From Planosporangium thailandense (GTDB lineage Bacteria > Actinomycetota > Actinomycetes > Mycobacteriales > Micromonosporaceae), in assembly GCF_011947195.1 (NCBI RefSeq), contig NZ_JAATVY010000019.1:1-64000 (forward strand): DNA of 64,000 nucleotides, in the 5' to 3' direction. The translations under genes and the position numbers were made by a program. The notes under the pieces are model-generated. The model was given only the letters and a program-made list of their open reading frames with translations. It had not been told where the DNA came from and searched no databases. This document shows, in pieces, positions 20,412 through 64,000 of this stretch (its first letter is position 1; every line of letters begins with the position of its first letter).

Positions 20412-21023
20412 TTGATCCGCATCCTGCTCGGCCGCGAGGGACGGGTGTGGCGCGAAGCGCTCGCCTCGGTGTTGGCTTCCAGCGACGGCCTGGAGGTGGT
20501 CGCCGAACTGGCACACACCGATGAAGTGCCGGTTGTCGCCGCCAGGGAGCGACCCGACGCCGTGGTGCTCGACCATGCGCTGCCCGGATCGCTCACCGTG
20601 CCAGATCTGTGCGAGAAGCTCGGCGTGGCCGCGCCGCGGTCGGTCGTGCTGGTCCTGCTGGACCGGCGCGGCGGCGCCCTGAGCACGGCTCTGGCCAGGT
20701 TGGCGCCACGGGTGGGCGTCCTCACGACCGATGCGACACCCTGGCAACTGGTCGACAGCGTCCGCCAGTTAATTCGTGGCGAACCGGTGCTCGACGCCAA
20801 GGTCGCCGTGGCAGCGCTGACCGCGCGACACAACCCGTTGACCGACCGGGAACGCGAGGTCCTTCGCCTGGCCGCGGACGGCGCGCCGGCCAAGGAGATT
20901 GCCGCACAGCTCTACCTGAGCGCCGGCACCGTGCGCAACTACCTGTCCCGGGTCATCGCGAAAACCGGAGCGCGGACCAGGATCGAGGCGATCCGGATCG
21001 CTCAGGGGTCCGGATGGATCTGA
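20412..21023 (+). CDS. Orphan LuxR-family (NarL-type) regulator of the lanthipeptide cluster
   Basis: A 203-aa response-regulator-like protein with the size and layout of RamR/AmfR, the regulators of SapB-type clusters. The receiver (about 1-120) keeps VVLDHALPG with the phospho-acceptor-position Asp. It lacks the usual acidic pair near the N-terminus (ILLGREGR instead of a DD motif), and the conserved Lys is Thr (VGVLTTDATP). The LuxR HTH (about 137-200) reads LTDREREVLRLAADG, then LSAGTVRNYLSRVIAKTGAR. No histidine kinase is adjacent. The TTG start directly follows GGGGGAGG, which is too close for comfort, so the true start is uncertain. Confidence 0.88.
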   Translation: MIRILLGREGRVWREALASVLASSDGLEVVAELAHTDEVPVVAARERPDAVVLDHALPGSLTVPDLCEKLGVAAPRSVVLVLLDRRGGALSTALARLAPRVGVLTTDATPWQLVDSVRQLIRGEPVLDAKVAVAALTARHNPLTDREREVLRLAADGAPAKEIAAQLYLSAGTVRNYLSRVIAKTGARTRIEAIRIAQGSGWI

Positions 21024-21046
21024 TCGGCCGGGCCGCGGCAGCGGCG

Positions 21047-21088
21047 CTGACTGAACGGCGCTGACTGAACGGCGCTGACTGAACGGCG
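21047..21088. repeat. 14-bp intergenic tandem array
   Basis: Three copies of CTGACTGAACGGCG lie 24 nt after the regulator stop. Confidence 0.9.
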
Positions 21089-21176
21089 ATGGCCCTGCGC
21101 AGATGGTCGACCCGGCGGCCGTCTGCGCCCCGGCGCGCGAACCCGTCAGGCGGCGGCGTGCTGGCACGATGATGCG

Positions 21177-21587
21177 GTGTTCGGGCAGCGCTGGGCAGAC
21201 GCGCCGCGATCCGTGCGCCTCGCCGTAGGCGCCGAGACCATGGTGCTCGGCTATGGCGCGGGCGTCCATGTCGTTCAATTCGTCGGGCAGGGCTTCCACC
21301 CCTATTCGTGGGCGCCGACCTGGCTCGCGATCTATTTCACGTCGCTGACGCTGGCCGACCCGCTCGCGGCGATACTGCTCTGGCTTCGGCGCGCGGCCGG
21401 TCTTTATCTTGCCGTTTGCATCCTCGTCACGGACGCCGTGGCCAATGGATACGCGGATTACGAATTGTCGATCGGCTCCGCTGTCGCCCGCGTTTCGCAC
21501 GCCGTGATCAGCATCCTGGCGGTGGCGGCACTGTCCACCGCGCCGTGGCTCCATTCCTGGCTTCGGCGGCACGGCACCCGTCGCTGA
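21177..21587 (+). CDS. Hypothetical integral membrane protein
   Basis: A 136-aa protein with about four hydrophobic spans: LAVGAETMVLGYGAGVHVVQF, WLAIYFTSLTLADPLAAILL, AGLYLAVCILVTDAVANGY and VISILAVAALSTAPWL. The loops are short and the termini basic. No family is recognised. It lies between the cluster regulator and lanL, same strand, but with its own gap on both sides. It could be an immunity or sensing protein, or unrelated. Confidence 0.65.
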   Translation: MFGQRWADAPRSVRLAVGAETMVLGYGAGVHVVQFVGQGFHPYSWAPTWLAIYFTSLTLADPLAAILLWLRRAAGLYLAVCILVTDAVANGYADYELSIGSAVARVSHAVISILAVAALSTAPWLHSWLRRHGTRR

Positions 21588-21648
21588 GTCGAGTCACTGC
21601 GCCTGGCAAATTGTGGCAGCGCCGTGCGGTGCCGGTTTCCCGGGCCAG

Positions 21649-21683
21649 AACATGAGTACCTTTCAGGCCCTAAACATGAGTAC
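21649..21683 (+). promoter_or_regulatory. 11-bp direct repeats upstream of lanL
   Basis: AACATGAGTAC occurs at 21649-21659 and again, identically, at 21673-21683, 24 nt apart. They lie in the less GC-rich gap about 200 nt before lanL. They are candidate sites for the LuxR-type regulator. Confidence 0.6.
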
Positions 21684-21689
21684 TTAACG

Positions 21690-21705
21690 GTCTGTCATGA
21701 CAGAC
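21690..21705. promoter_or_regulatory. 16-bp perfect palindrome upstream of lanL
   Basis: GTCTGTCATGACAGAC is a perfect dyad seven nt after the second direct repeat and well upstream of the lanL start at 21876. Confidence 0.6.
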
Positions 21706-21875
21706 GTGACTTACCCCGGCCGGGCGCGCCCAGCAGCATTACGAGTGCGACCAAACTGCGAAGTTCACCAGTCACTTAAGACTGCCGATATTCGCCACTC
21801 GGCCGACAGCGTGAGCACCGACAGCGTGAGTACAGCGTCATCCACGCCGCGCGCCCAACTCCTGGAGACCACTTA

Positions 21876-24728
21876 ATGGCAGCGTTCGATCAAAGCTTCC
21901 TCACTCGGCCAGTGGAGGCCAGCGCGGATAGTTCAGCACTAGCCGCGGCACTTGATCGCGCCTTGCGTGATATGGCCGACGCTGACCGCTGGGAAGTGGG
22001 GACCAACGGCCTCTGGTGCGCTGTGACGCCGAAGGATCGCGTACTGCCCCCGCAAGGCTGGAAGCTTCACCTGTCGGCGACTCCCGCGTCGGCCGAGTCG
22101 GTACTGACGCGATCGCTTCCGGTACTGCTGCGAAGCCGCGCCGCCTTCAAGTTCATGGGCAGGGTCGAGTATGTCGTGCAGATGAATGCGCGCAACACTC
22201 CGCGGGGGAAGTCCGGCAAGTTCATCACCGTCTACCCGGCCGATGACCAGGAGGCCGTGCGCCTGGCGGACGAGCTGCACCGGGCGACGGCGGGGCTGGC
22301 CGGTCCCCGTATCCTCTCCGACCGGCCGTATCGCTACGACAGTATCGTCCATTACCGATACGGCGCGTTCGTCGAAGCGCGCCGGCTCTCCAATGACGGC
22401 CTGTACTCCTGGGTAATTTTCGACCCGGACGGCAACCCGGTGGAGGACCGGCGGGCCCCGGTATACCAGCCACCGGCCTGGGTGCAGTGCCCGTTCCCCG
22501 CGCCTGTGGGTAACCCTGCCGAAGGCGGTGGGTCGGGCACTAAGAAGGACGATCGCGGTGTGCTGCTCGCCGGCCGATTTCTGGTGCGGGAGGCGATCCG
22601 CCACACCAACAAAGGCGGCGTCTACCGCGGTGTGGATACCGAAAGCGGCAGCGAGATCGTCATCAAGGAAGCGCGCGCGCACGTCGAGGCGGACAAGACC
22701 GGGAAAGACGTACGTGACCTCCTGCGCGCGGAAGCGACCGCGCTGGCGAAAGTCTCGCCGCTGAGCGTCGCGCCCCGGCCGCTCAAGCTCTTCGAGCAGA
22801 ACCAGCACCTTTTCCTCGCCGAGGAGCTGGTCCCGGGGAAACCGCTCTGCCAATGGGTCCCGATCCGGATCCGGGAAGTTGGGTGGCGCCGCCGCATTCC
22901 GGAGGCGCTGGACATCGCCGCACGCCTGGTGGAGCTCATGGACCTCGTACACCAGGCCGGCGTCATTCTTCGGGACTTCAACCCCAACAACATCATGGTG
23001 CGTCCCGATGGCCGCCTGGAGCTGATCGACCTCGAGTTCGCGGTGCTGGCGGAGGCGCGGGAAGGGGAGCACCGGCCTGCCGGCACGCCAGGGTACGCCG
23101 CACCCGAGCAGATGAATGGCGCGGCTCCGAATATTCAGGCCGATTACTACAGCCTCGGGGCCACCATCTGTTTCGTGGTCACCGGCAATTCCCCGTCCCT
23201 GTTGCCGGACGAGCCGGCGCGCCGGCCGATTCGTGAGCGGCTCGCGGAGTGGTTGGAGGTCCGTCAGGACGCGTCCGATCACGATGACCTCAAGACGTTG
23301 ATTCTGGGCCTGATGGACGACGAGCCCGAGCGCCGCTGGACGACCGCGCGCGCCCGAGCCGCGCTGGAGGCGGCGCGGGAGCGCCCGGAGCGACCAGCGC
23401 TGCCGCACCCGTCGATCGAAACCGGTTCCGGGGCCGAGCCCGAGCGCGGTGCCGACGCCCGGCTGGGGGACGAGCAGTGGCGCGACGCGGTCGACGGTGC
23501 CGTCGGTTACCTGCTCGCCTCGATGAACAGTGCCGGCTCGATGAACAGTGCCGGCTCGATGAACGGTGCCGGCTCGATCAACAGCGCCGGCTCGATGAAC
23601 GGTCCCGGCGGGGACCGGCTGTGGCCCGGCTCCTGCGCCAACGCCGCCGCCGACCCGTGCTCGGTCCAACTCGGCGCCGCGGGCATTCTCGGCGTGCTCA
23701 CCAGGTACTTCGAACTCACCGGCGACGACCGGCTGCCAGCAGTGCTCGCCACCGCGGGTGGGTGGCTCGCCCAGCGGCTGCGCGCCGACGACACCCGGCC
23801 GCCGGGCCTCCACTTCGGCGACGCCGGCGTGGCCTGGTCGCTGTACGAAGCCGGACGGGCTCTCGATGACGGCCGGTTGGTCGAGCAGGGCTTGGAACTG
23901 GCCGGCTCGGTGTCGGTCTCCTCACGGGACCTGGACGTCACCCACGGCACCGCCGGGATCGGGCTCGCGTTCCTGCACCTGTGGCTGAGGACCGGCGACG
24001 AGGAGTTCCGCACCCGCGTCCACGAGGCGGCCGACCGCCTCATCGCCGAGGCCCGCACCGAACCAGGCGGCCTCATCTGGGGGACTCCGGCCGCGCACAT
24101 CTCCCGACTGGCCGGCGGCCGCTACTACGGGTACGCGCACGGCACAGCCGGTGTGGGCACCTTCCTCGTCGCCGCGGCGGCCGCCACCGGGCGGGCCGAC
24201 TGCCTCGCGCTCGCCCGCCAGGCAGGCGAGACGCTCCTCACCAACGCATCCGTGACGGACGGCGCGGCCATGTGGGGCTCCGGCCCCGGTGATCCGACCA
24301 CGGCGCCGTACTGGTGCCACGGATCCACGGGTATCGGCATGTATCTCATCCGCCTGTACCGCGCCACCGGGGACGACCGTTTCGAGAAGTTGGCCCACAT
24401 GGCCGCGCGCGCGGTGATGGACCACTCCTGGCGGGGAGTGCTCGGGCAGTGTCACGGACTCTCGGGCAACGGAGAGTTCCTCCTCGACATGGCCGACCTG
24501 GCCGATGGGCCGCGGTACGAGGGCCTCGCACACCAACTGGCGCGGATCGTCCACGCCAGCCGGGCCTACCGCGACGGCCGTACGGTCTTTCCCGACCAGG
24601 AAGGAGCCGTCAACCCCTCCTGGGCGGACGGTATGAGTGGGGTTCTGGCCTTCCTCCTGCGGCTGAAGTACCGGTCGCCTCGACTGTGGATGGTCGACTC
24701 CGTGCTCGAGCGGGGCCACCGGTCGTGA
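21876..24728 (+). CDS. lanL: Class IV lanthipeptide synthetase (LanL)
   Basis: A 950-aa trifunctional enzyme that phosphorylates Ser/Thr of the precursor, eliminates phosphate, and closes (methyl)lanthionine rings. The N-terminal lyase (about 1-225) includes GRVEYVVQMNARN and GKFITVYPADD. The Ser/Thr kinase-like domain (about 227-500) has Lys264 (VIKEA), ILRDFNPNN with Asp367, and LIDLEF with Asp385. The LanC-like cyclase (about 525-940) has YWCHGSTG (Cys814) and QCHGLSGN (Cys859, His860). These three zinc ligands separate class IV from class III, which lacks them. An 18-bp array sits at the start of the cyclase part. ATG has GGAGA seven nt upstream. It is coupled to the peptidase by GTGA. 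Confidence 0.95.
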   Translation: MAAFDQSFLTRPVEASADSSALAAALDRALRDMADADRWEVGTNGLWCAVTPKDRVLPPQGWKLHLSATPASAESVLTRSLPVLLRSRAAFKFMGRVEYVVQMNARNTPRGKSGKFITVYPADDQEAVRLADELHRATAGLAGPRILSDRPYRYDSIVHYRYGAFVEARRLSNDGLYSWVIFDPDGNPVEDRRAPVYQPPAWVQCPFPAPVGNPAEGGGSGTKKDDRGVLLAGRFLVREAIRHTNKGGVYRGVDTESGSEIVIKEARAHVEADKTGKDVRDLLRAEATALAKVSPLSVAPRPLKLFEQNQHLFLAEELVPGKPLCQWVPIRIREVGWRRRIPEALDIAARLVELMDLVHQAGVILRDFNPNNIMVRPDGRLELIDLEFAVLAEAREGEHRPAGTPGYAAPEQMNGAAPNIQADYYSLGATICFVVTGNSPSLLPDEPARRPIRERLAEWLEVRQDASDHDDLKTLILGLMDDEPERRWTTARARAALEAARERPERPALPHPSIETGSGAEPERGADARLGDEQWRDAVDGAVGYLLASMNSAGSMNSAGSMNGAGSINSAGSMNGPGGDRLWPGSCANAAADPCSVQLGAAGILGVLTRYFELTGDDRLPAVLATAGGWLAQRLRADDTRPPGLHFGDAGVAWSLYEAGRALDDGRLVEQGLELAGSVSVSSRDLDVTHGTAGIGLAFLHLWLRTGDEEFRTRVHEAADRLIAEARTEPGGLIWGTPAAHISRLAGGRYYGYAHGTAGVGTFLVAAAAATGRADCLALARQAGETLLTNASVTDGAAMWGSGPGDPTTAPYWCHGSTGIGMYLIRLYRATGDDRFEKLAHMAARAVMDHSWRGVLGQCHGLSGNGEFLLDMADLADGPRYEGLAHQLARIVHASRAYRDGRTVFPDQEGAVNPSWADGMSGVLAFLLRLKYRSPRLWMVDSVLERGHRS
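23523..23612 (+). repeat. 18-bp tandem array in lanL
   Basis: Five 18-bp units of ATGAACAGTGCCGGCTCG encode MNSAGS repeats between the kinase and the conserved cyclase barrel. Confidence 0.92.
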
Positions 24729-26623
24729 CCACACTCCGGTTGGAGGCCCTGCCGGCCGTGACCGACCGCTTCGACTTCGCCTTCTCGGGGAACGGTCGCT
24801 ACGCCGCGTGCCTCAAGCGCAGCGACGAGGCGGTGTCCCTGGAGAGTCCGGCGACCCTCGAGAGTTGGAGCCTGCACTCGGAGGAGGCGGTCTGCCGGCC
24901 GGTCACCGGCGTCGTCGTCGGTGGGGCGAGCCACGCTCTCCCCCTTGACGACGGCCGGATTCTGCTGTCCCGCAGCGACGGGGTCGAGCTCACCTTCCGA
25001 CATCGGCTCGCCGTCCTGCAGCCCAGTGGTAGTGGCTTCAGCGAACAGCCGCTCGGCGAAGTGTCCACGTTGCTCGGTGGTGGGCTCCTACCGTGCCCCG
25101 GCTCGACGCGGCTCGCCTTCTTCGTCGCGCGCGACGATCCGGATCATTCCACGATCTGGCGGCTTTCGACGTCCCGGCCGGGGACGGGGCTACCGGTGAT
25201 GGAGCCGGTGGTGCGCGTGCCGGGCTCCCTGTCGGGGGGCGTGTGGCTCGACGCGGACGCCGGTGTGCTCGCGGTGAACCAGGACCTCGACGGCCACAGC
25301 AGCGGCATCGCTGTCGACCTGGTCCGCGGGGAGTGGCGGCGCATCTGGTCAGTGTCGGACCGCAGCACCGACCGGATCGTCCTCTACAGCCCTCGGTCGA
25401 AGGCGCTCGTCGTCACCACGAACGCGACCGGCGAGGAGCGACTCGGCTGGAGCCGACTCGGACAGGGCGAAGTCAACTTCCCCGAGGTCCTGCACCACCC
25501 GGGCCACCCGCGGCGCGCGCTGGCGCTCGACAGCAGCGGTGAGCGGCTGCTGGTCCACGAGTCGCGGGGCGCGGTGTCCCGGCTGTTCACCTACACCCCG
25601 GCCGACCGACGTCTGCGGCCCGTCACCGGCCCGGCCGGCACCGTCTCACCTCCGGCCTCGTGGGTCGGCGACCTCGTCCGGTTCCGCTTCTCGGCTCCCG
25701 ACCAACCCCCCACGCTCGCGACGGTGCGGTTGGGAACGCGGCCCCGATGGTCGCTGAGCCGGGTCGGGGAAGCGGAGAACGAGACCGCCTGGGCCGCCGC
25801 CGAGCTCATCTCGCTGCCGGGACCGGCAGGTCCGATCGAGGCGATCGTGTACGGCGGCGCGGCGTGGTGGCGATGTCCGCATCTGGTGGTGGCGCTGCAC
25901 GGCGGCCCGCTCGCCGCATGGCGCTTCGAGTTCGAACCGCTCTTCCAACGCCTCGCCGCGGCCGGCGTCGCCGTCGTGGCGCCGAACTGCCGCGGCAGCA
26001 TCGGCTACGGCGAGGAGCATCTGCGGGCGGTCGTCACGAACTGGGGCGGGCCGGACCTCGAGGACGTCCTGCACCTGGTGCGGCGCCTCGAAACGCAGCG
26101 GGCGTCGCTTCACCTGCCGAAGCCCGTTGTGCTGGGCGAGAGCTACGGCGGCTTCCTGGCATTGCTGGCGGCGTGCCGGGAGCCGGAGCGATGGTCGGGA
26201 TGCGTCGCCCTCGCGCCCTTTCTGTCCGGACCACGCCTGTACGAAAGCGCACACGGCGTGGTGCGCAGCCGGGTCGACAAGCTCGGCGGGCGCAACGCCG
26301 TCGACGATGGCGCGGGGCCCAGGGACGTGCTGCGGATCTGCGCGTCGCTGTCCGCACCGCTGCTGCTGGTCCACGGCACCGGGGACGTCGCGGTACCGGT
26401 CGAGCAGTCGCGGACGCTCGTGCGCCGGCTGTCCGAGCTCGGCAGGTCCGAAGGCGTCGACTTCGAGTACCTCGAGGTTCCGGGCGATCACGCGGCAGTG
26501 GCCTCGGCCCGGCCGAGCGCGCTGGCCCGACGGATCGTGAGCTTCTGCCTGAGCCGGAGGATCCCGGCCGACCACTTCGTTCGCATGGAGGCAGGTGAAA
26601 ACCATGCCGTTCGACCGGTTTGA
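24725..26623 (+). CDS. S9 family (prolyl oligopeptidase-like) peptidase
   Basis: A 632-aa serine peptidase, candidate leader protease of the cluster. The N-terminal ~370 residues have the repeated beta-strand look of a propeller. The C-terminal alpha/beta-hydrolase shows VVALHGGPLAAW (oxyanion), VLGESYGGFLALL (Ser473), LVHGTGDVAVPV (Asp554) and PGDHAAVAS (His589), a complete triad. There is no signal peptide, so it would act in the cytoplasm. GTG overlaps the lanL stop. POP-type proteases process some class III lanthipeptides; the leaders here contain Leu-Pro and Asp-Pro sites. Its 3' end overlaps the first precursor gene by 20 nt. Confidence 0.9.
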   Translation: MTTLRLEALPAVTDRFDFAFSGNGRYAACLKRSDEAVSLESPATLESWSLHSEEAVCRPVTGVVVGGASHALPLDDGRILLSRSDGVELTFRHRLAVLQPSGSGFSEQPLGEVSTLLGGGLLPCPGSTRLAFFVARDDPDHSTIWRLSTSRPGTGLPVMEPVVRVPGSLSGGVWLDADAGVLAVNQDLDGHSSGIAVDLVRGEWRRIWSVSDRSTDRIVLYSPRSKALVVTTNATGEERLGWSRLGQGEVNFPEVLHHPGHPRRALALDSSGERLLVHESRGAVSRLFTYTPADRRLRPVTGPAGTVSPPASWVGDLVRFRFSAPDQPPTLATVRLGTRPRWSLSRVGEAENETAWAAAELISLPGPAGPIEAIVYGGAAWWRCPHLVVALHGGPLAAWRFEFEPLFQRLAAAGVAVVAPNCRGSIGYGEEHLRAVVTNWGGPDLEDVLHLVRRLETQRASLHLPKPVVLGESYGGFLALLAACREPERWSGCVALAPFLSGPRLYESAHGVVRSRVDKLGGRNAVDDGAGPRDVLRICASLSAPLLLVHGTGDVAVPVEQSRTLVRRLSELGRSEGVDFEYLEVPGDHAAVASARPSALARRIVSFCLSRRIPADHFVRMEAGENHAVRPV

Positions 26624-26771
26624 CGAGGCGGCCCGCCGCAGGGCGCTGCCGATGACCGAACGGGTCGACACAGACGGCATCCAGTGCCGCGCGGGGACCC
26701 GACCACAGGTGTGCCCCGCGCTGAGCGTCCAGTCGCTCGACCCCGTCTGCATGTGCGGTACGTGCCGATAA
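26604..26771 (+). CDS. Divergent lanthipeptide precursor (fourth LanA)
   Basis: A 55-aa peptide overlapping the peptidase 3' end in another frame. Without any gap it keeps the leader positions of the other three precursors: F6-D7, A14-L15-P16, T18 and D24-G25-I26-Q27. The core CRAGTRPQVCPALSVQSLD then VCMCGTCR aligns with VCIGLLTINIANTLCIGITCA (one-residue gap): V-C-x-x-L near the middle and [TV]-C-x-x-x-T-C-x at the end in the family layout. It has five Cys (28, 37, 49, 51, 54) and Ser/Thr at 32, 41, 44, 53. The upstream GGCAGGTGAAAACC closely matches the ribosome site of the next precursor, so the whole module was duplicated. Confidence 0.75.
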   Translation: MPFDRFDEAARRRALPMTERVDTDGIQCRAGTRPQVCPALSVQSLDPVCMCGTCR

Positions 26772-26831
26772 CCGGGCCTGGACGACCCGCTGAACAACCG
26801 GAAACCCATCCCATGGAAGGAGGTGAAAATC

Positions 26832-27020
26832 ATGCAGCTTGACAGCTTCGACCTGGTGGCCTCACTGCAGGCGCTGCCGGAGACCGACCCGATCGAGATC
26901 GACGGCGTCCAGTTCAACGGCGGCGGTGGTGGGGGTTCGGAGACCTGCGCGGCCGTCTGCATCGGTCTGCTCACGATCAACATCGCCAACACCCTCTGCA
27001 TCGGCATCACCTGCGCGTAG
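26832..27020 (+). CDS. lanA1: Class IV lanthipeptide precursor 1
   Basis: A 62-aa precursor. The leader MQLDSFDLVASLQALPETDP then IEIDGVQF is followed by a hexaglycine stretch and the core SETCAAVCIGLLTINIAN then TLCIGITCA. The core has Ser36, Thr38, 48, 54, 60 and Cys39, 43, 56, 61. The ALPETDP leader motif and the C-terminal CIGITCA are strikingly like venezuelin (VenA), the founding class IV product. GGAGGTG ends seven nt before ATG 26832; an in-frame GTG at 26823 is part of that ribosome site and an unlikely start. Confidence 0.93.
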   Translation: MQLDSFDLVASLQALPETDPIEIDGVQFNGGGGGGSETCAAVCIGLLTINIANTLCIGITCA

Positions 27021-27068
27021 CGGGGCCGCCGACGAGCCCGGGACGTTCCAGGGAAGGAGGTGACAAAC

Positions 27069-27257
27069 ATGCAGCTTGAGAACTTCGACCTGGTGGCTTC
27101 GCTGCAGGCGCTGCCGGAGACCGACCCGATCGAGATCGACGGCGTCCAGTTCTACGGCGGCGGCGGTGGCGGTAACGAGACCTGCGTGGCCGTGTGCATC
27201 GGTCTGCTGACCGTCAACATCGCCAACTCCGTCTGTGTCGGCATCACCTGCGCATAG
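27069..27257 (+). CDS. lanA2: Class IV lanthipeptide precursor 2
   Basis: A 62-aa paralogue of precursor 1. The leader differs at residues 4-5 (EN for DS), and the spacer is YGGGGGG. The core is NETCVAVCIGLLTVNIAN then SVCVGITCA: Ser36 is lost (Asn), Thr54 becomes Ser, and Ile57 becomes Val, while all four Cys and Thr38, 48, 60 are kept. Changes spare the ring-forming residues, so the product should have the same ring pattern with altered side chains. GGAGGTGACAAAC precedes the ATG. Confidence 0.93.
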   Translation: MQLENFDLVASLQALPETDPIEIDGVQFYGGGGGGNETCVAVCIGLLTVNIANSVCVGITCA

Positions 27258-27301
27258 CAGGGTCCGGACGAACTCACAACACTCCCTGAAAGGAACTCAT
27301 C

Positions 27302-27481
27302 ATGCAGCTTGACAGCTTCGACCTGGTGGCCTCACTGCAGGCGCTCCCGGAGACCGACCCGATCGAGATCGACGGCATCCGTTTCGACGGCGGCGGCAAC
27401 GAGACCTGCGCCGCGATCTGCATCGGTCTGCTGACCGTCAACCTCCTCAACACGGTCTGCATCGGTATCACCTGCGCCTAG
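27302..27481 (+). CDS. lanA3: Class IV lanthipeptide precursor 3
   Basis: A 59-aa paralogue with the same leader to residue 25, then IRFDGGG (three fewer glycines) and a core NETCAAICIGLLTVNLLN then TVCIGITCA. Its core is the closest of the three to venezuelin (shared LLTxxLLNTVCIGI). Cys36, 40, 53, 58 and Thr35, 45, 51, 57 are conserved. The ribosome site GAAAGGAAC is different from, and probably weaker than, that of precursors 1 and 2. It is followed after about 60 nt by a hairpin that may end the precursor transcript. Confidence 0.92.
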   Translation: MQLDSFDLVASLQALPETDPIEIDGIRFDGGGNETCAAICIGLLTVNLLNTVCIGITCA

Positions 27482-27542
27482 CAGGTCGTAGGCGATCCCC
27501 GCGACCCTGACCGCTGGAGACTGCGGCGGGCGACGGGGAATG

Positions 27543-27577
27543 GGGCACGGAGGCGGTCACCCGCTGCCTCCGTGCCC
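27543..27577 (+). terminator. Hairpin after lanA3, possible attenuator
   Basis: GGGCACGGAGGC (27543-27554) pairs perfectly with GCCTCCGTGCCC (27566-27577), with extra wobble pairs inside. No T-run follows. Its place between abundant-product precursors and the exporter suggests partial termination. Confidence 0.6.
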
Positions 27578-27609
27578 GGCTCTGCGCCGACGACCTTCGC
27601 CCAAGGGGG

Positions 27610-27708
27610 CGGGACGAGAGGCCGAAGGGGACGAGAGGCCGAAGGGGACGAGAGGCCGAAGGGGACGAGAGGCCGAAGGGGACGAGAGGCAGAGGGGACG
27701 AGAGGCAG
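27610..27708. repeat. 17-bp intergenic tandem array upstream of exporter
   Basis: About six units of GGGGACGAGAGGCCGAA, the last two shortened to 15-16 bp. Because 17 is not a multiple of three, the open frame crossing it is unlikely to be translated. Confidence 0.92.
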
Positions 27709-27845
27709 TGGTGCGGCGGCGGCACGGTCGACATTGTCGAAGGCGACATTGTCGAAGCCGGCGTCTGCGCGCCTCGGCGTCGCAGACCGTCCCGGCAAAC
27801 CGCCCCCGATCCCCCGCGCGGCTCACGAGCTGGCTGGCCCGCGCG

Positions 27846-29642
27846 GTGGCGCCACAGCTGCCCGCCGGGACGCTGCGGGCCGCGGGCAGTCGTGTCCTGC
27901 GGCAGGCCGTCCGGCAACACCCGTTCCTGGTGCTGCTGTTCACCGTGGTCACCGGCGTCGGGGCGGTCACGACCGTCCTGATGCCCCGCGTGGTGGCCGC
28001 CGCGATCGACGCGGCCACCACGGGAACCAACGTGACCGGCGCGCTGGCGCAGTTGGCGGCGCTGCTCGCGATCGCGACGGCGGCGAGCGCCCTCGACGAC
28101 CTGATCGGCTCCTACTACGGCACGATGCTGACCGCCGGGTTCCGGCACCGGCTGCTGGGCCGCGCGCTCGCGCTTGGTGTACCCGGCCTCCGGCGCTTTC
28201 CCGCCGGGGATCTGCTGTCCCGCATCACCGTCAACGCGGGTACGCCGGCGATGGTCCTTCCCATGCTCCTGTCGGCGACGGCGACCCTGTCGGTCACCCT
28301 CGGCGCGGTGGTGAGTCTGGCGCTGATCGACCTGCGTCTCGCGGTCACCCTGCTGCTCGGCGTACCGCCGAGCGTGGCGCTGCTCCGTCTGTTCGTCGCC
28401 ACGGCGGCCCAGCCCTTCGTCCGCTACCAGGAACTGCTCGCCGCGATCACCACCCGCCTGCTCGACGCCCACCGGGGCGTACGCACGATCCGGGCCGGCG
28501 GTACGGCCGAGCGTGAGATCGGCCGGATTCTCCAGCCGGTGCCGGAGCTGCACGAGGTCGGACGGCAGGGGTGGGTGGTGCAGGGGCGCGCCAGTTGGCA
28601 GCTGGCGCTGCTCGTACCCGTCGTCCAACTGCTCGTGCTGTCGGTGGGCGGCTACGCGCTGGTCGCCGGCCAGATCACCGCCGGTCAGCTGGTGGCGGCG
28701 GCGTCCTACGCCGGCCTCGCGCTCGGTTCGATGGGGTTGCTGGACACGCTCGTCTCCCTCCTGTCGTGCCAGGTAGGAGCGGGCCGGGTGGGTGAGGTGC
28801 TCGAGGCGGTGCCCGCCGCGCCGGCACCCGCGTCACCGGTGGCGGTGCCACCCGGGTACGGCCGGCTGGAGCTGCGCAACATCAGCGTGCGGATGGACGA
28901 CCGCCCGGTGCTCGACCATCTGTACCTGGCGGTGCCGGCGGGACGGAGTGTCGCGATCGTCGGGCGGTCGGGCACCGGCAAGAGCGTGCTGGTGTCCCTG
29001 ATCGGCCGGCTGGCCGACCCCGACGAGGGCCAGGTGCTGCTCGACGGGGTTCCCGTCGCCGAGATCGAGCCTGCCGCACTGCGCCGGACCGTGACGTACG
29101 CCTTCGAGCGGCCCGCCCTGCTCGGCGCCACCATCCACGACATGATCGCCTACGGCAGGCCGGCCGCATCGCGGGCCGAGGTCGAGGCGGCGGCTGCCGT
29201 GGCGCAGGCCGATCGGTTCATCCGGCTGCTGCCGAAGGGCTACGACACCCCGCTGGCCCAGGCACCCATGTCCGGTGGCGAGATGCAGCGCCTCGGGCTG
29301 GCCCGGGCGATCCTGGCCAGGGCTCGGGTCATCGTGCTGGACGACGCCACCAGCAGCCTCGACACCGCTACCGAGGCGAAGGTGGCGCGGGCGCTCGCGC
29401 GGGTCCTCGCCGGACGTACCTCGGTGGTGGTGGCCCACCGGGCCATGACCGCCGCCCGCGCCGACCTCGTGGCCTGGCTCGACGGGGGTCGAGTACGGGC
29501 GCTCGCTCCCCACTCGGCGCTGTGGTCGGATCCCGGCTACCGGGCAGTGTTCGGAGCGGCGGACGACACGGGAGCCGGCGAAATCGCGGTCCGCGACGTC
29601 TCCGGAATGCCCGCGGCCCTCCAGGTCGGGGTGCGGAGATGA
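27846..29642 (+). CDS. ABC exporter subunit 1 of the lanthipeptide cluster
   Basis: A half-transporter (598 aa from GTG 27846) with a six-helix exporter domain (about 20-340) and a nucleotide-binding domain. It has Walker A GRSGTGKS, signature MSGGEMQRLGLARA, Walker B VIVLDDATSSLD and switch His VVVAHR. The Q-loop Gln is Glu (YAFERPALLG), and the catalytic Glu after Walker B is Asp, so its site is degenerate as in one half of heterodimeric exporters. The start is uncertain: no ATG exists, and upstream codons belong to a frameless repeat. The ATG of subunit 2 overlaps its stop. Confidence 0.9.
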   Translation: MAPQLPAGTLRAAGSRVLRQAVRQHPFLVLLFTVVTGVGAVTTVLMPRVVAAAIDAATTGTNVTGALAQLAALLAIATAASALDDLIGSYYGTMLTAGFRHRLLGRALALGVPGLRRFPAGDLLSRITVNAGTPAMVLPMLLSATATLSVTLGAVVSLALIDLRLAVTLLLGVPPSVALLRLFVATAAQPFVRYQELLAAITTRLLDAHRGVRTIRAGGTAEREIGRILQPVPELHEVGRQGWVVQGRASWQLALLVPVVQLLVLSVGGYALVAGQITAGQLVAAASYAGLALGSMGLLDTLVSLLSCQVGAGRVGEVLEAVPAAPAPASPVAVPPGYGRLELRNISVRMDDRPVLDHLYLAVPAGRSVAIVGRSGTGKSVLVSLIGRLADPDEGQVLLDGVPVAEIEPAALRRTVTYAFERPALLGATIHDMIAYGRPAASRAEVEAAAAVAQADRFIRLLPKGYDTPLAQAPMSGGEMQRLGLARAILARARVIVLDDATSSLDTATEAKVARALARVLAGRTSVVVAHRAMTAARADLVAWLDGGRVRALAPHSALWSDPGYRAVFGAADDTGAGEIAVRDVSGMPAALQVGVRR

Positions 29643-31405
29643 ACCTCTCCGCCGGCGCGCGGCTGCTCCGGAGCCATCTGCGGCCGCACCGCCGGGCGCT
29701 CTGGTGGCTCGCCGCCTGGTCGGCCGTCGAGGGGGTGCCCGCCTTCGTCTCCGGGCTGCTCGTCGCCAACGCGATCGACCACGGCTTCCTCGCGCGACGG
29801 CCCCTCGTCGGGTTCGGCTCGCTGGCCGCCCTGGGCGCGCTGTACGCCGTCGGGGCCCTCGGTACCCGACGGGCCTTCCCGTGGCTGGCCTCGGCCGTCG
29901 AGCCGCTGCGCGACTCGCTGGTCACCGCCGTGGTCACCGCCTCGTTGCGGCGGGCCCTGCGGGGCGAGGACAGGGCCGGCGGATCGAGTGTTTCCCAGGC
30001 CACCGTGCAGGTCGAGACGGTCCGGATCCTGATGTCGAGCCTGCTGCGCACCGCGCGCCAGTTCCTCGTCACGACCGTCGCGGCCCTCGGCGGGCTGTTC
30101 GTGTTGTCGCCGCTGATCGCCCTGGTCACCACCGGGCTGGTGGTGCTGGCGCTGCTCGCGTTCGCCGGCCTGGTGCGGGTCCTCGTCGCGCGGTACCGCG
30201 CCGTGGTGCTGCTCGGCGAGAGGATCGGCGCCACCGCCTCACCGGTCGTCGAGGGGCTGCGCGACGTCGTCGTCTGCGGCGCCGAGACGCGCGCCGCCCG
30301 CGAGGTGGGCAGGGCGATCGACGACGAGGCCCAAGCCCAGCGGGCGTACGCGAGGGCGTGGGTGCTCCGGCTGCCCGTGATGATGTTGGGCGCGCAGTTC
30401 CCCCTGCTCGCCCTCCTGGGGCTGTCACCGTGGCTGCTCGCGGGCGGTCGGCTCACCGTCGGGCAGATCGCGGGCGGCGCCGTCTATCTGTTCAGCCGGC
30501 TCGAGCCGGCGATCCGGATGCTCATCGGCGCCGGCGGGAGCATCCTCACCAACCTCGGGGTGGTGCTCGGCCGGCTGTCGGAGGTGTGCGCCGAGCCGCC
30601 CCCGTCTGCTCCCGGCGCGGCGGTGCTGCGGCCACCGACCTGCGACGTGCGCCTTCGGGGCGTCACGTTCGCCTATTCCGCACATGCCGAACCGGTGGTC
30701 CGTGACCTCACGCTCGACATCCCCGAAGGTCTCCATCTCGCGGTGGTGGGCCCGAGCGGGGTCGGCAAGTCCACCCTCGCGAACCTGCTCACCCGGCTGG
30801 CCAGACCGCAGCGGGGTGAGCTGACGATCGGCGGGGTGAGCCTGGAGACGGTCGACGAGGAGCATCTGCGGCGCACCGTGGCGCTGATCCCCCAGGAGGC
30901 GTACGTGTTCGCCGGGACGGTACGGGAGAACCTGACGTACCTGCAGCCGCACGCCACCAGGGCCGACCTCGATCGCGCGGTGGCCGCCGTCGGTCTCGAG
31001 GAGACGTGCGCCCGCCTGGGCGGCTACGACGCCGAGATCCCGCCCGGCGGCGAGACGCTGTCCTCCGGGGAACGGCAGCTCATCTCGCTGGCCCGGGTGT
31101 TCCTGTCGGCGGCCCGGATCGTCATCCTCGACGAGGCGACCTGCTACCTCGACCCGATGGCGGAGGCGCGGGCGGAGCAGGCGTTCGCCGAGCGCGTCGG
31201 CACGCTCGTGGTGATCGCCCACCGGATCAGTTCGGCCGTCCGGGCCGACCGGGTCCTCGTGATGGACGGCGCCGATCCCCTTCTCGGCACCCACGAAGAG
31301 CTGCTGCGCCGCAGCCCGCTCTACGCCGAACTCGTCGGCCACTGGAGCGGTCTCGGCGTGCCGGCCCGAGAAACCGGTCTCGGCGTGCCGGCCCGAAGCC
31401 GGTAG
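29639..31405 (+). CDS. ABC exporter subunit 2 of the lanthipeptide cluster
   Basis: A half-transporter (588 aa) forming the pair with subunit 1, like RamA/RamB. The membrane domain covers about residues 15-320. The ATPase domain has Walker A GPSGVGKST, Q-loop LIPQEAYVF, signature LSSGERQLISLARV, Walker B VILDEATCYLD with the catalytic Glu, and HRISSAV with the switch His, all canonical. The heterodimer therefore has one consensus and one degenerate site. ATGA overlap couples it to subunit 1. The C-terminus ends in a duplicated GLGVPAR. It probably exports the modified peptides. Confidence 0.93.
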   Translation: MNLSAGARLLRSHLRPHRRALWWLAAWSAVEGVPAFVSGLLVANAIDHGFLARRPLVGFGSLAALGALYAVGALGTRRAFPWLASAVEPLRDSLVTAVVTASLRRALRGEDRAGGSSVSQATVQVETVRILMSSLLRTARQFLVTTVAALGGLFVLSPLIALVTTGLVVLALLAFAGLVRVLVARYRAVVLLGERIGATASPVVEGLRDVVVCGAETRAAREVGRAIDDEAQAQRAYARAWVLRLPVMMLGAQFPLLALLGLSPWLLAGGRLTVGQIAGGAVYLFSRLEPAIRMLIGAGGSILTNLGVVLGRLSEVCAEPPPSAPGAAVLRPPTCDVRLRGVTFAYSAHAEPVVRDLTLDIPEGLHLAVVGPSGVGKSTLANLLTRLARPQRGELTIGGVSLETVDEEHLRRTVALIPQEAYVFAGTVRENLTYLQPHATRADLDRAVAAVGLEETCARLGGYDAEIPPGGETLSSGERQLISLARVFLSAARIVILDEATCYLDPMAEARAEQAFAERVGTLVVIAHRISSAVRADRVLVMDGADPLLGTHEELLRRSPLYAELVGHWSGLGVPARETGLGVPARSR

Positions 31406-62873: not shown

Positions 62874-64000
62874 TTACCGCATCGCCCGTGTTCCGGAGCC
62901 CCAATGGGGGGCGTTCCAGCGGGTGGTGAGACCCCCGAGGGTGCCGGAGCCGGTGGCGGTGAGGGTGAACACGGCGACGTGGCTGGTGCCGTAGTCGTAG
63001 AACAGGCTGATGTCGGTCTTGCCGTCGCCGTTGAAGTCGCCGGTGGCCAGGAACTTCGTGCCGGTGCCCCAGTAGGGGGCGTTCCAGCGGTTGGTGAGGG
63101 CACCGAGGGTGCCGGTGCCGGTGGCGGTGAGGGTGAACAGGGCGACGTGGCTGGTGCCGTAGTCGTAGAACAGGCTGATGTCGGTCTTGCCGTCGCCGTT
63201 GAAGTCGCCGGTGGCCAGGAACTTCGTGCCGGTGCCCCAGTAGGGGGCGGTCCAGCGGTTGGCGAGGCCCGCGAGGGTCCCGGTGCCGGTGGCGGTGAGG
63301 GTGAACACGGCGACGTGGCTGGTGCCGTAGTCGTAGAACAGCGCGATGTCGGACCTGCGGTCGCCGTTGAAGTCGCCGGTGGCCAGGAATTTCGTGCCGG
63401 TGCCCCAGTAGGGGGCGGTCCAGCGGTTGGCCAGACCTCCGAGGTTCCCGGTGCCGCTGCCGGCCGCGGTGAGGGTCCACAGCGCGACGCGGCCGTTGCC
63501 GTAGTCGTAGAACAGCGCCAGGTCGTCCCGGCCGTCGCCGTTGAAGTCCCCGGTTGTCACGAACTTCGTGCGGGTGCCCCACACCGGCCGGTCCCAGCGG
63601 GGCAGCGGCCCGGAGAAGCCGCCGTCGCCGTTGCGGTCCGCGGTGAGGGTCCACAGGGTGACGTGGCCGTTGCCGTAGTCGTAGAACAGCGCCAGGTCGG
63701 CCTTGCCGTCGCCGTTGAAGTCACCGGCGGTCACGAACTTCGTGCCAGGTCCCCAGTTGGGGCCCTGCCAGCGCAGGACCGGCGCGCCGAACCCGCCGCC
63801 CGCCTGGGCGGTCAGCGTCCACAGCGCGACGCGGCCGTTGCCGTAGTCGTAGAACAGCGCCAGGTCGTCCCGGCCGTCGCCGTTGAAGTCGGCCTTGACC
63901 CGTGACGAATCCGCGCCCGTCGGCTGGGGGACGGTGCCGGCGGCCGGCCGGCCGGCGATGGCGACGTTGAGCAGCCTGTCGGGCGATCCGGGGCCGGCGT
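62874..64000 (-). CDS. FG-GAP/VCBS repeat protein (partial at right edge)
   Basis: The C-terminal part of a protein built from 56-58-residue repeats. Each has a calcium-loop DFNGDGKTDISLFYDYG or DFNGDGRDDLALFYDYG, then a strand HVAVFTLTATGTG and a spacer RWNAPYWGTGTKFLATG. At least six repeats are visible, as in seven-bladed propellers that are secreted or carried by actinobacterial hydrolases. The gene continues beyond 64000, so the N-terminal domain is unknown. The stop TAA is at 62874-62876. Confidence 0.88.
   Translation of the reverse strand, partial: AGPGSPDRLLNVAIAGRPAAGTVPQPTGADSSRVKADFNGDGRDDLALFYDYGNGRVALWTLTAQAGGGFGAPVLRWQGPNWGPGTKFVTAGDFNGDGKADLALFYDYGNGHVTLWTLTADRNGDGGFSGPLPRWDRPVWGTRTKFVTTGDFNGDGRDDLALFYDYGNGRVALWTLTAAGSGTGNLGGLANRWTAPYWGTGTKFLATGDFNGDRRSDIALFYDYGTSHVAVFTLTATGTGTLAGLANRWTAPYWGTGTKFLATGDFNGDGKTDISLFYDYGTSHVALFTLTATGTGTLGALTNRWNAPYWGTGTKFLATGDFNGDGKTDISLFYDYGTSHVAVFTLTATGSGTLGGLTTRWNAPHWGSGTRAMR
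62930..63440 (-). repeat. 168-bp near-identical repeats in FG-GAP gene
   Basis: Three consecutive 168-bp units (anchor GTAGTCGTAG at 62991, 63159, 63327) are nearly identical at DNA level; the next anchor at 63501 is 174 bp away and more diverged. Confidence 0.88.

Follow-up and report, generated by a model that had tools for sequence, protein, structure and literature searches.

The 64,000-nt window of Planosporangium thailandense DNA analysed here holds a mostly ordinary class IV lanthipeptide cluster of an already known type, in which the synthetase gene lanL is followed by a gene for an S9-family serine peptidase that resembles acylaminoacyl peptidases (subfamily S9C) and is the probable leader peptidase. 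What appears to be new is this S9C-like partner, which is common and possibly ancestral in its branch of class IV and which we did not meet in the open-access literature searched; no paper there joined a lanthipeptide with an acylaminoacyl peptidase, the 2018 and 2020 class IV papers and the 2013 paper on FlaP lying outside the scope of that search. Class IV leader removal is largely an open question, with the reference venezuelin (ven) cluster lacking a protease and the SflA case relying on an unclustered enzyme. With a conserved S9C-like enzyme encoded in the cluster at 74 of the 127 loci examined, the question can be put to a direct test, and the enzyme could yield a tool for leader removal.

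The genes from 21876 to 31405 form a single series, all on the + strand: lanL (21876..24728; 950 aa), the S9 peptidase gene (24725..26623; 632 aa; PF00326, 83.2 bits), four small precursor genes termed A1 to A4, and the two exporter halves T1 and T2. The S9 gene starts with a GTG at 24725 and so overlaps the lanL stop by four bases, as a preliminary description made from the sequence had noted. The same description had called a protease coupled to LanL unusual, a view that the surveys contradict. Of the 24 LanL places scoring over the cut-off in 394 genomes drawn evenly from the class, a sample that gives the unbiased frequency of the partner, 10 had an S9 gene just downstream. Across all loci examined, an S9 relative above 200 bits was found downstream of lanL in 74 of 127, and no relative above that score in 53. 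This larger set comprises the window, nine loci from an S9 search (eight genomes, all also in the class-draw LanL list), 14 other class-draw LanL places, locus L102, two loci from a further LanL search, and batches of 40, 40, 14 and 6 from additional LanL searches, the first three batches holding mostly the higher-scoring places of two of these searches; L102 and L261 fall below the class IV cut-off, and L156 ends 909 bases after lanL. In the 74 S9-bearing loci the S9 start lies within ~530 bases of the lanL end, and 57 of them have a possible S9 start codon that shares 1 or 4 bases with the lanL stop. The S9 partner is common in this class IV branch and far from universal.

The enzyme had initially been taken for a prolyl oligopeptidase (POP)-type protease, and this was not borne out. 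Structure searches with the single sequence as well as with a profile ranked acylaminoacyl peptidases first (S9C; e.g. PDB 1ve6 and 2qzp), which resemble the enzyme in the peptidase domain and, by the profile search, also in a large part of the propeller (profile positions 74-593, E 5e-43). The profile search placed one chain named as a POP (7c72) further down the list, with E 1e-22, and dipeptidyl peptidases below that. The POP N-terminal propeller, PF02897, found no match in the window protein; among 30 S9 relatives, PF00326 was present in all 30 and PF02897 in one, at E 0.079. The S9 profile matched 14 other actinobacterial S9-family proteins over its main stretch at 109-154 bits. At E 1e-3 it matched none of the 30 POP loci L274-L303, and of four POP loci linked to class III it matched one, weakly (18.7 bits). 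Judged by these comparisons, the window enzyme is acylaminoacyl-peptidase-like and not a POP, the S9C name being assigned from the top matches of the structure searches and not from a MEROPS comparison. Its catalytic triad is intact, with Ser473 at 26141..26143, Asp554 at 26384-26386 and His589 at 26489-26491 (all +); the Ser is kept in 73 of 74 S9 relatives, the Asp and His in all 74. The sole relative without the catalytic Ser, in L257, aligns a Gly there and may be inactive or reflect a sequence error.

Acylaminoacyl peptidases are not lanthipeptide enzymes, whereas the S9 group of the window is tied to class IV clusters. Every S9 relative that the class draw returned under E 1e-70 (10 places in 9 genomes, window included) adjoins a LanL, and a search of the window's genome with the S9 protein drops from 746 bits to 79 bits at the next-best match; both findings argue for a dedicated S9 group. 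A scan of genome contigs with the S9 protein returned a single locus, 30 percent identical, which has no bearing on the partner question. A separate observation concerns proteins encoded in family f21 that match the S9 propeller only (~170-212 bits, profile positions ~11-350) and show no match to the peptidase domain. They occur in L018-L024, L026, L027, L029, L030, L034, L035 and L037; twelve f21 contexts of 15-16 kb (L262-L273) have their neighbourhood in common and contain no match to LanL or T1, and two of the propeller-only proteins checked against Pfam matched no family.

Downstream of the precursor genes, T1 (27708..29642, +; PF00664 57.5 bits, PF00005 80.3 bits) and T2 (29639..31405, +; PF00005 96.3 bits) bear out the paired ABC exporter that had been proposed, the membrane match of T2 to PF00664 lying just under the cut-off (26.6 against 28 bits). 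The T1 frame opens at 27540, probably too early, and by eye the GTG at 27708 looks the likelier start; T2 begins at an ATG (29639), with a four-base overlap to the T1 stop. Each half carries a membrane and an ATPase region, unlike the separately encoded exporter of the VenT/VenH type. At the catalytic place of the Walker B motif the window T1 has Asp and T2 has Glu, and wherever the pattern could be found, Asp was read in all 38 T1 and Glu in all 52 T2 proteins (57 examined in either case). Fused exporter pairs in which one half lacks the catalytic Glu are usually heterodimers whose ATPase sites include a weak one. T1 and T2 show this feature and are predicted to form a heterodimeric ABC exporter with one weakened ATPase site; a peptidase domain was not found in either of them.

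We scored the exporter as present when T1 and/or T2 exceeded 400 bits, a call that may in some cases be shortened by contig or stretch ends. By this measure it occurred in 59 of 127 loci: 55 had S9 and exporter, 19 S9 only, four the exporter only, and 49 neither. The association is pronounced when relatedness is ignored (Fisher p 9e-15) and also in a tree-aware test, in which independent pairs split roughly 7 to 0, some 8 more being ties (median p 0.016). S9 and exporter are thus strongly associated, but not by rule. Perfect pairing, suggested by the first 27 loci (window included), in which T1 and T2 accompanied S9 in all 12 cases, broke down at 127 loci.

As a tentative reading, S9C peptidase and exporter would constitute the ancestral leader-removal module of the branch, lost in venezuelin-like clusters and paralleling a separate recruitment of POPs by class III clusters with a related exporter. 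The same two groups of S9-bearing loci appeared in a LanL tree of 27 rows and in trees of S9 and of T1+T2 from the first 12 S9-bearing loci. Within the LanL tree, the venezuelin-like, S9-less loci L086 and L184 nest among S9-bearing neighbours of the window, and a constraint grouping the six S9-bearing rows was rejected (p-AU 2.2e-11, the group having been named after seeing the tree). The simplest reading of this nesting is that S9 was lost in the L086 and L184 lines, whose genomes contain no S9-profile match above 180 bits. Agreement among the trees and the position of L086 and L184 both speak against the alternative, namely that S9 and exporter, instead of being ancestral and disappearing from venezuelin-like lines, were passed on by repeated transfer. 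In favour of transfer, the LanL tree of all 127 rows (FastTree; several long branches) requires no fewer than 20 changes in the presence of S9, and we give this history somewhat less than an even chance of being the right one.

The class III parallel that belongs to the ancestral-module reading rests on clusters with POPs. S9-family serine peptidases in lanthipeptide clusters include FlaP, the POP of the class III flavipeptin cluster according to the accessible part of PMC10885120, and LanPB of Streptococcus pneumoniae clusters, according to that of PMC7268733. Both are named POPs of class III clusters, whereas the window enzyme is S9C-like and belongs to class IV; FlaP is distinguished here by description, and its place in the comparison was taken by the POPs of L334-L337, which are encoded at or close to a class III LanKC. 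Among 150 genomes of family f3, no fewer than four places had a POP with PF02897 next to a class III LanKC or within ~5 kb of it; two class III POPs gave 206.7 and 112.9 bits to PF02897. The genes of L334 run LanKC-LanA-POP-T1-T2, with a class III synthetase (1059.2 bits), a POP bearing PF02897, and an exporter related to the window pair (T1 584, T2 649 bits). The likeness to the window thus comprises a related exporter pair and an S9-family peptidase in a similar place; in the other three class III-linked POP stretches no T1/T2 matches were found. It thus seems that a comparable place in the cluster has been filled from different S9 subfamilies in class III and in class IV.

The four small genes are A1 (26604..26771; 55 aa), A2 (26832..27020; 62 aa), A3 (27069..27257; 62 aa) and A4 (27302..27481; 59 aa), all on the + strand. 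A2, A3 and A4 exceed the cut-off of the VenA family (NF038147; 35 bits) with 73.2, 77.2 and 86.8 bits, so that homology to known class IV precursors, and the venezuelin relationship claimed for them earlier, is upheld. A1 reaches 20.8 bits and is a diverged relative at most. A C-x3-[ST]-C-x-stop ending is borne by A1-A4, the four such open reading frames of the window, compared with a mean of 0.12 and a maximum of 1 in 50 base-composition shuffles, which argues that the small peptides did not arise by chance. Codon differences among A2-A4 fall mainly at third positions (A2-A3 6, 3, 11; A2-A4 8, 3, 13; A3-A4 7, 4, 14), while A1 differs from them in amino acid at 32 to 35 of 55 aligned codons and lacks the third-position bias. 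The ALPETDP leader attributed to the precursors stands for A2-A4, with ALPMTER in its place in A1; likewise, the CIGITCA end is found in A2 and A4, with CVGITCA in A3 and CMCGTCR in A1. Support remains for the proposed outcome, a small family of products from venezuelin-related precursors, and the products of the cluster are very probably a small set of related venezuelin-type peptides locked by rings. In the accessible part of PMC7268733, 815 class IV clusters are counted and 83 percent of class IV precursors are the sole predicted one of their cluster, which makes multiple precursors the less common state. Long series exist as well: L214 and L223, both from genome G745, have ~6 and ~7 precursor genes in tandem, whose leaders are alike and whose cores differ.

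Likeness between the window and the ven cluster (venL/venA/venT/venH; PMC2843593, as far as its accessible part describes it) extends to a LanL with zinc cyclase, the VenA-type leader and core pattern, and downstream ABC export genes. The ven cluster is described there with one precursor, separate ATPase and permease genes, and neither protease nor regulator; the window differs by its S9 peptidase, four small genes, fused exporter halves and predicted ring sizes. The rings proposed for venezuelin in that source (Thr31-Cys50, Cys32-Thr43, Cys34-Thr39 and Cys45-Ser49) become 1-20, 2-13, 4-9 and 15-19 when numbered from the core Thr. The matching residues in A2 and A4 are Thr1-Cys24, Cys2-Thr17, Cys6-Thr11 and Cys19-Thr23, with Ser17 in A3. 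From this correspondence we infer that the A2-A4 cores follow the venezuelin four-ring plan, in which the two outer rings would be enlarged by four residues and the two small rings unchanged. Venezuelin core spacing is kept in L040, L163, L166 and the S9-less L086 and L184; the spacing of L041 is nearer that of the window, and L100 is unlike both.

Aligned to the other cores, A1 retains what three of the rings need (Thr1, Cys6, Ser for Thr11, Cys19, Thr23 and Cys24), while in the fourth Arg stands in place of Cys2 and Pro in place of Thr17. This joint replacement supports the proposed ring pairing, as a single case from an uncertain gene. There is an appreciable, if minor, chance that A1 is instead a decayed precursor without a product, as its place under the VenA cut-off and its many amino acid changes without third-position bias would suggest. 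Decay fits less well with an open frame, a ribosome-site region that resembles those of A2 and A3, a preserved C-x3-T-C-x end and the concerted change of the two residues of one putative ring.

In the model that we consider fairly probable, the class IV operon encodes a route in which LanL builds the rings, S9 removes the leader and T1/T2 export the product. LanL would phosphorylate Thr and Ser in the cores of A2-A4 (perhaps also of A1) and eliminate the phosphate, and its zinc cyclase would add Cys, closing four rings. Leader removal would fall to the S9C-like peptidase, translationally coupled to lanL and acting in the cytosol, perhaps with housekeeping aminopeptidases working after it, and the T1/T2 pair would export the product. 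Established here are the identities of the genes, the zinc ligands, the catalytic triad, the recurring order of the genes and the co-occurrence of S9 with the exporter; the role of S9 as leader peptidase, the ring pattern, the order of steps and export of the mature peptide are what we infer from the locus. The window S9 protein is probably cytosolic, as its first 70 residues reach a highest 19-residue hydropathy of 0.63 and show no evident signal peptide; since 9 of 30 S9 relatives have a 19-residue stretch above 1.6, this placement is meant for the window protein and not for the S9 family at large. Leader removal by S9 is probable in view of its coupling to lanL, the intact triad, co-occurrence with the exporter and the fact that a search of that exporter found no peptidase domain.

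The 53 loci without S9 indicate that class IV peptides can mature without it, and they lend some weight to a different, rather unlikely role. S9 would then not be the leader endopeptidase, but would trim single residues or degrade misfolded or re-entering peptide—self-protection, in the latter variant—with an unclustered M1 enzyme cutting the leader. S9C enzymes are often exopeptidases, which counts for trimming, and the window's genome has three M1 matches, two of them in long open frames. A precedent is SflA, of class IV like the window product, whose leader peptidase SflL is an M1 metallopeptidase encoded outside the cluster, as stated in the accessible part of PMC10885120; in that of PMC9576775, only two class IV members are said to have been characterised before two of its own. 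Against such a role, the tight coupling of S9 to lanL and its co-occurrence with the exporter suggest a step common to every molecule made. To judge from the title of its original paper, SflA reportedly has non-overlapping rings.

A leader Pro was considered as a mark of the S9 cut and rejected. Pro precedes the first Cys in 98 of 106 precursor peptides from S9-bearing loci and in 31 of 35 from S9-less ones, and does so directly in 21 of 106 and 5 of 35, respectively. The eight Pro-less peptides come mostly from loci that also have a Pro-bearing one, L189 having none in any. These precursors were found by leader motif, in 67 of 74 S9-bearing and 30 of 53 S9-less loci, and the list misses some (A1 included) and contains a few likely artefacts (for example one in L214 and one in L091). 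As leader Pro does not separate S9-bearing from S9-less loci, no S9 cut site is predicted, and this result counts against S9 as the leader peptidase.

The synthetase itself is, by model scores, a class IV lanthipeptide synthetase, in agreement with the preliminary description. LanL obtains 1071.6 bits from the class IV model NF038150 (cut-off 650) and fails the class III model with 510.3 bits (cut-off 575), so it scores with class IV, and the window's genome has only one place above the class IV cut-off. The three domains named previously were all recovered on the + strand: a RamC_N lyase domain (residues 33-209; 21972..22502; PF25816, 208.5 bits), a kinase domain (residues 246-493; 22611..23354; PF00069, 85.9 bits) and a LanC-like cyclase domain (residues 593-938; 23652..24689; PF05147, 148.8 bits). 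So were the zinc ligands of the cyclase at the positions assigned to them, Cys814 (24315..24317, +; Cys in 125 of 127 aligned class IV LanL) and Cys859 with His860 (24450..24455, +; Cys in 125, His in 117 of 127). A class III (LanKC) synthetase with labionin-type products, which would have the identical three-domain plan and earn the 510.3 bits, is exceedingly improbable and refuted on sequence, that score lying under its cut-off while the class IV model gives 1071.6 and the zinc ligands are kept. In 9 of 127 LanL proteins the third ligand column holds Cys rather than His, either a genuine variant or an alignment shift.

Upstream of lanL, a LuxR-type (GerE) gene (20412..21023, +; PF00196, 57.6 bits) possibly encodes a regulator of the cluster, its link to which is unproven. 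Its protein had no Pfam match to a receiver domain, and strong conservation in related loci was not seen, L086 giving the sole tblastn match above 70 bits. Beyond the cluster, the neighbours tested were LamB/YcsF and CT_A_B genes on the 3′ side, the latter presumably 5-oxoprolinase-like, and an MMPL transporter gene on the 5′ side; given these, the cluster probably ends at 31405. A scan for promoters and terminators gave no signal exceeding chance. Short tandem arrays abound across the window (58 TRF rows, many with units of 14-32 bp), for example at 23519-23609, 27611-27706 and 62893-63891; an 18-bp array within the lanL linker encodes SMNSAG repeats, and a 17-bp array separates A4 from T1.
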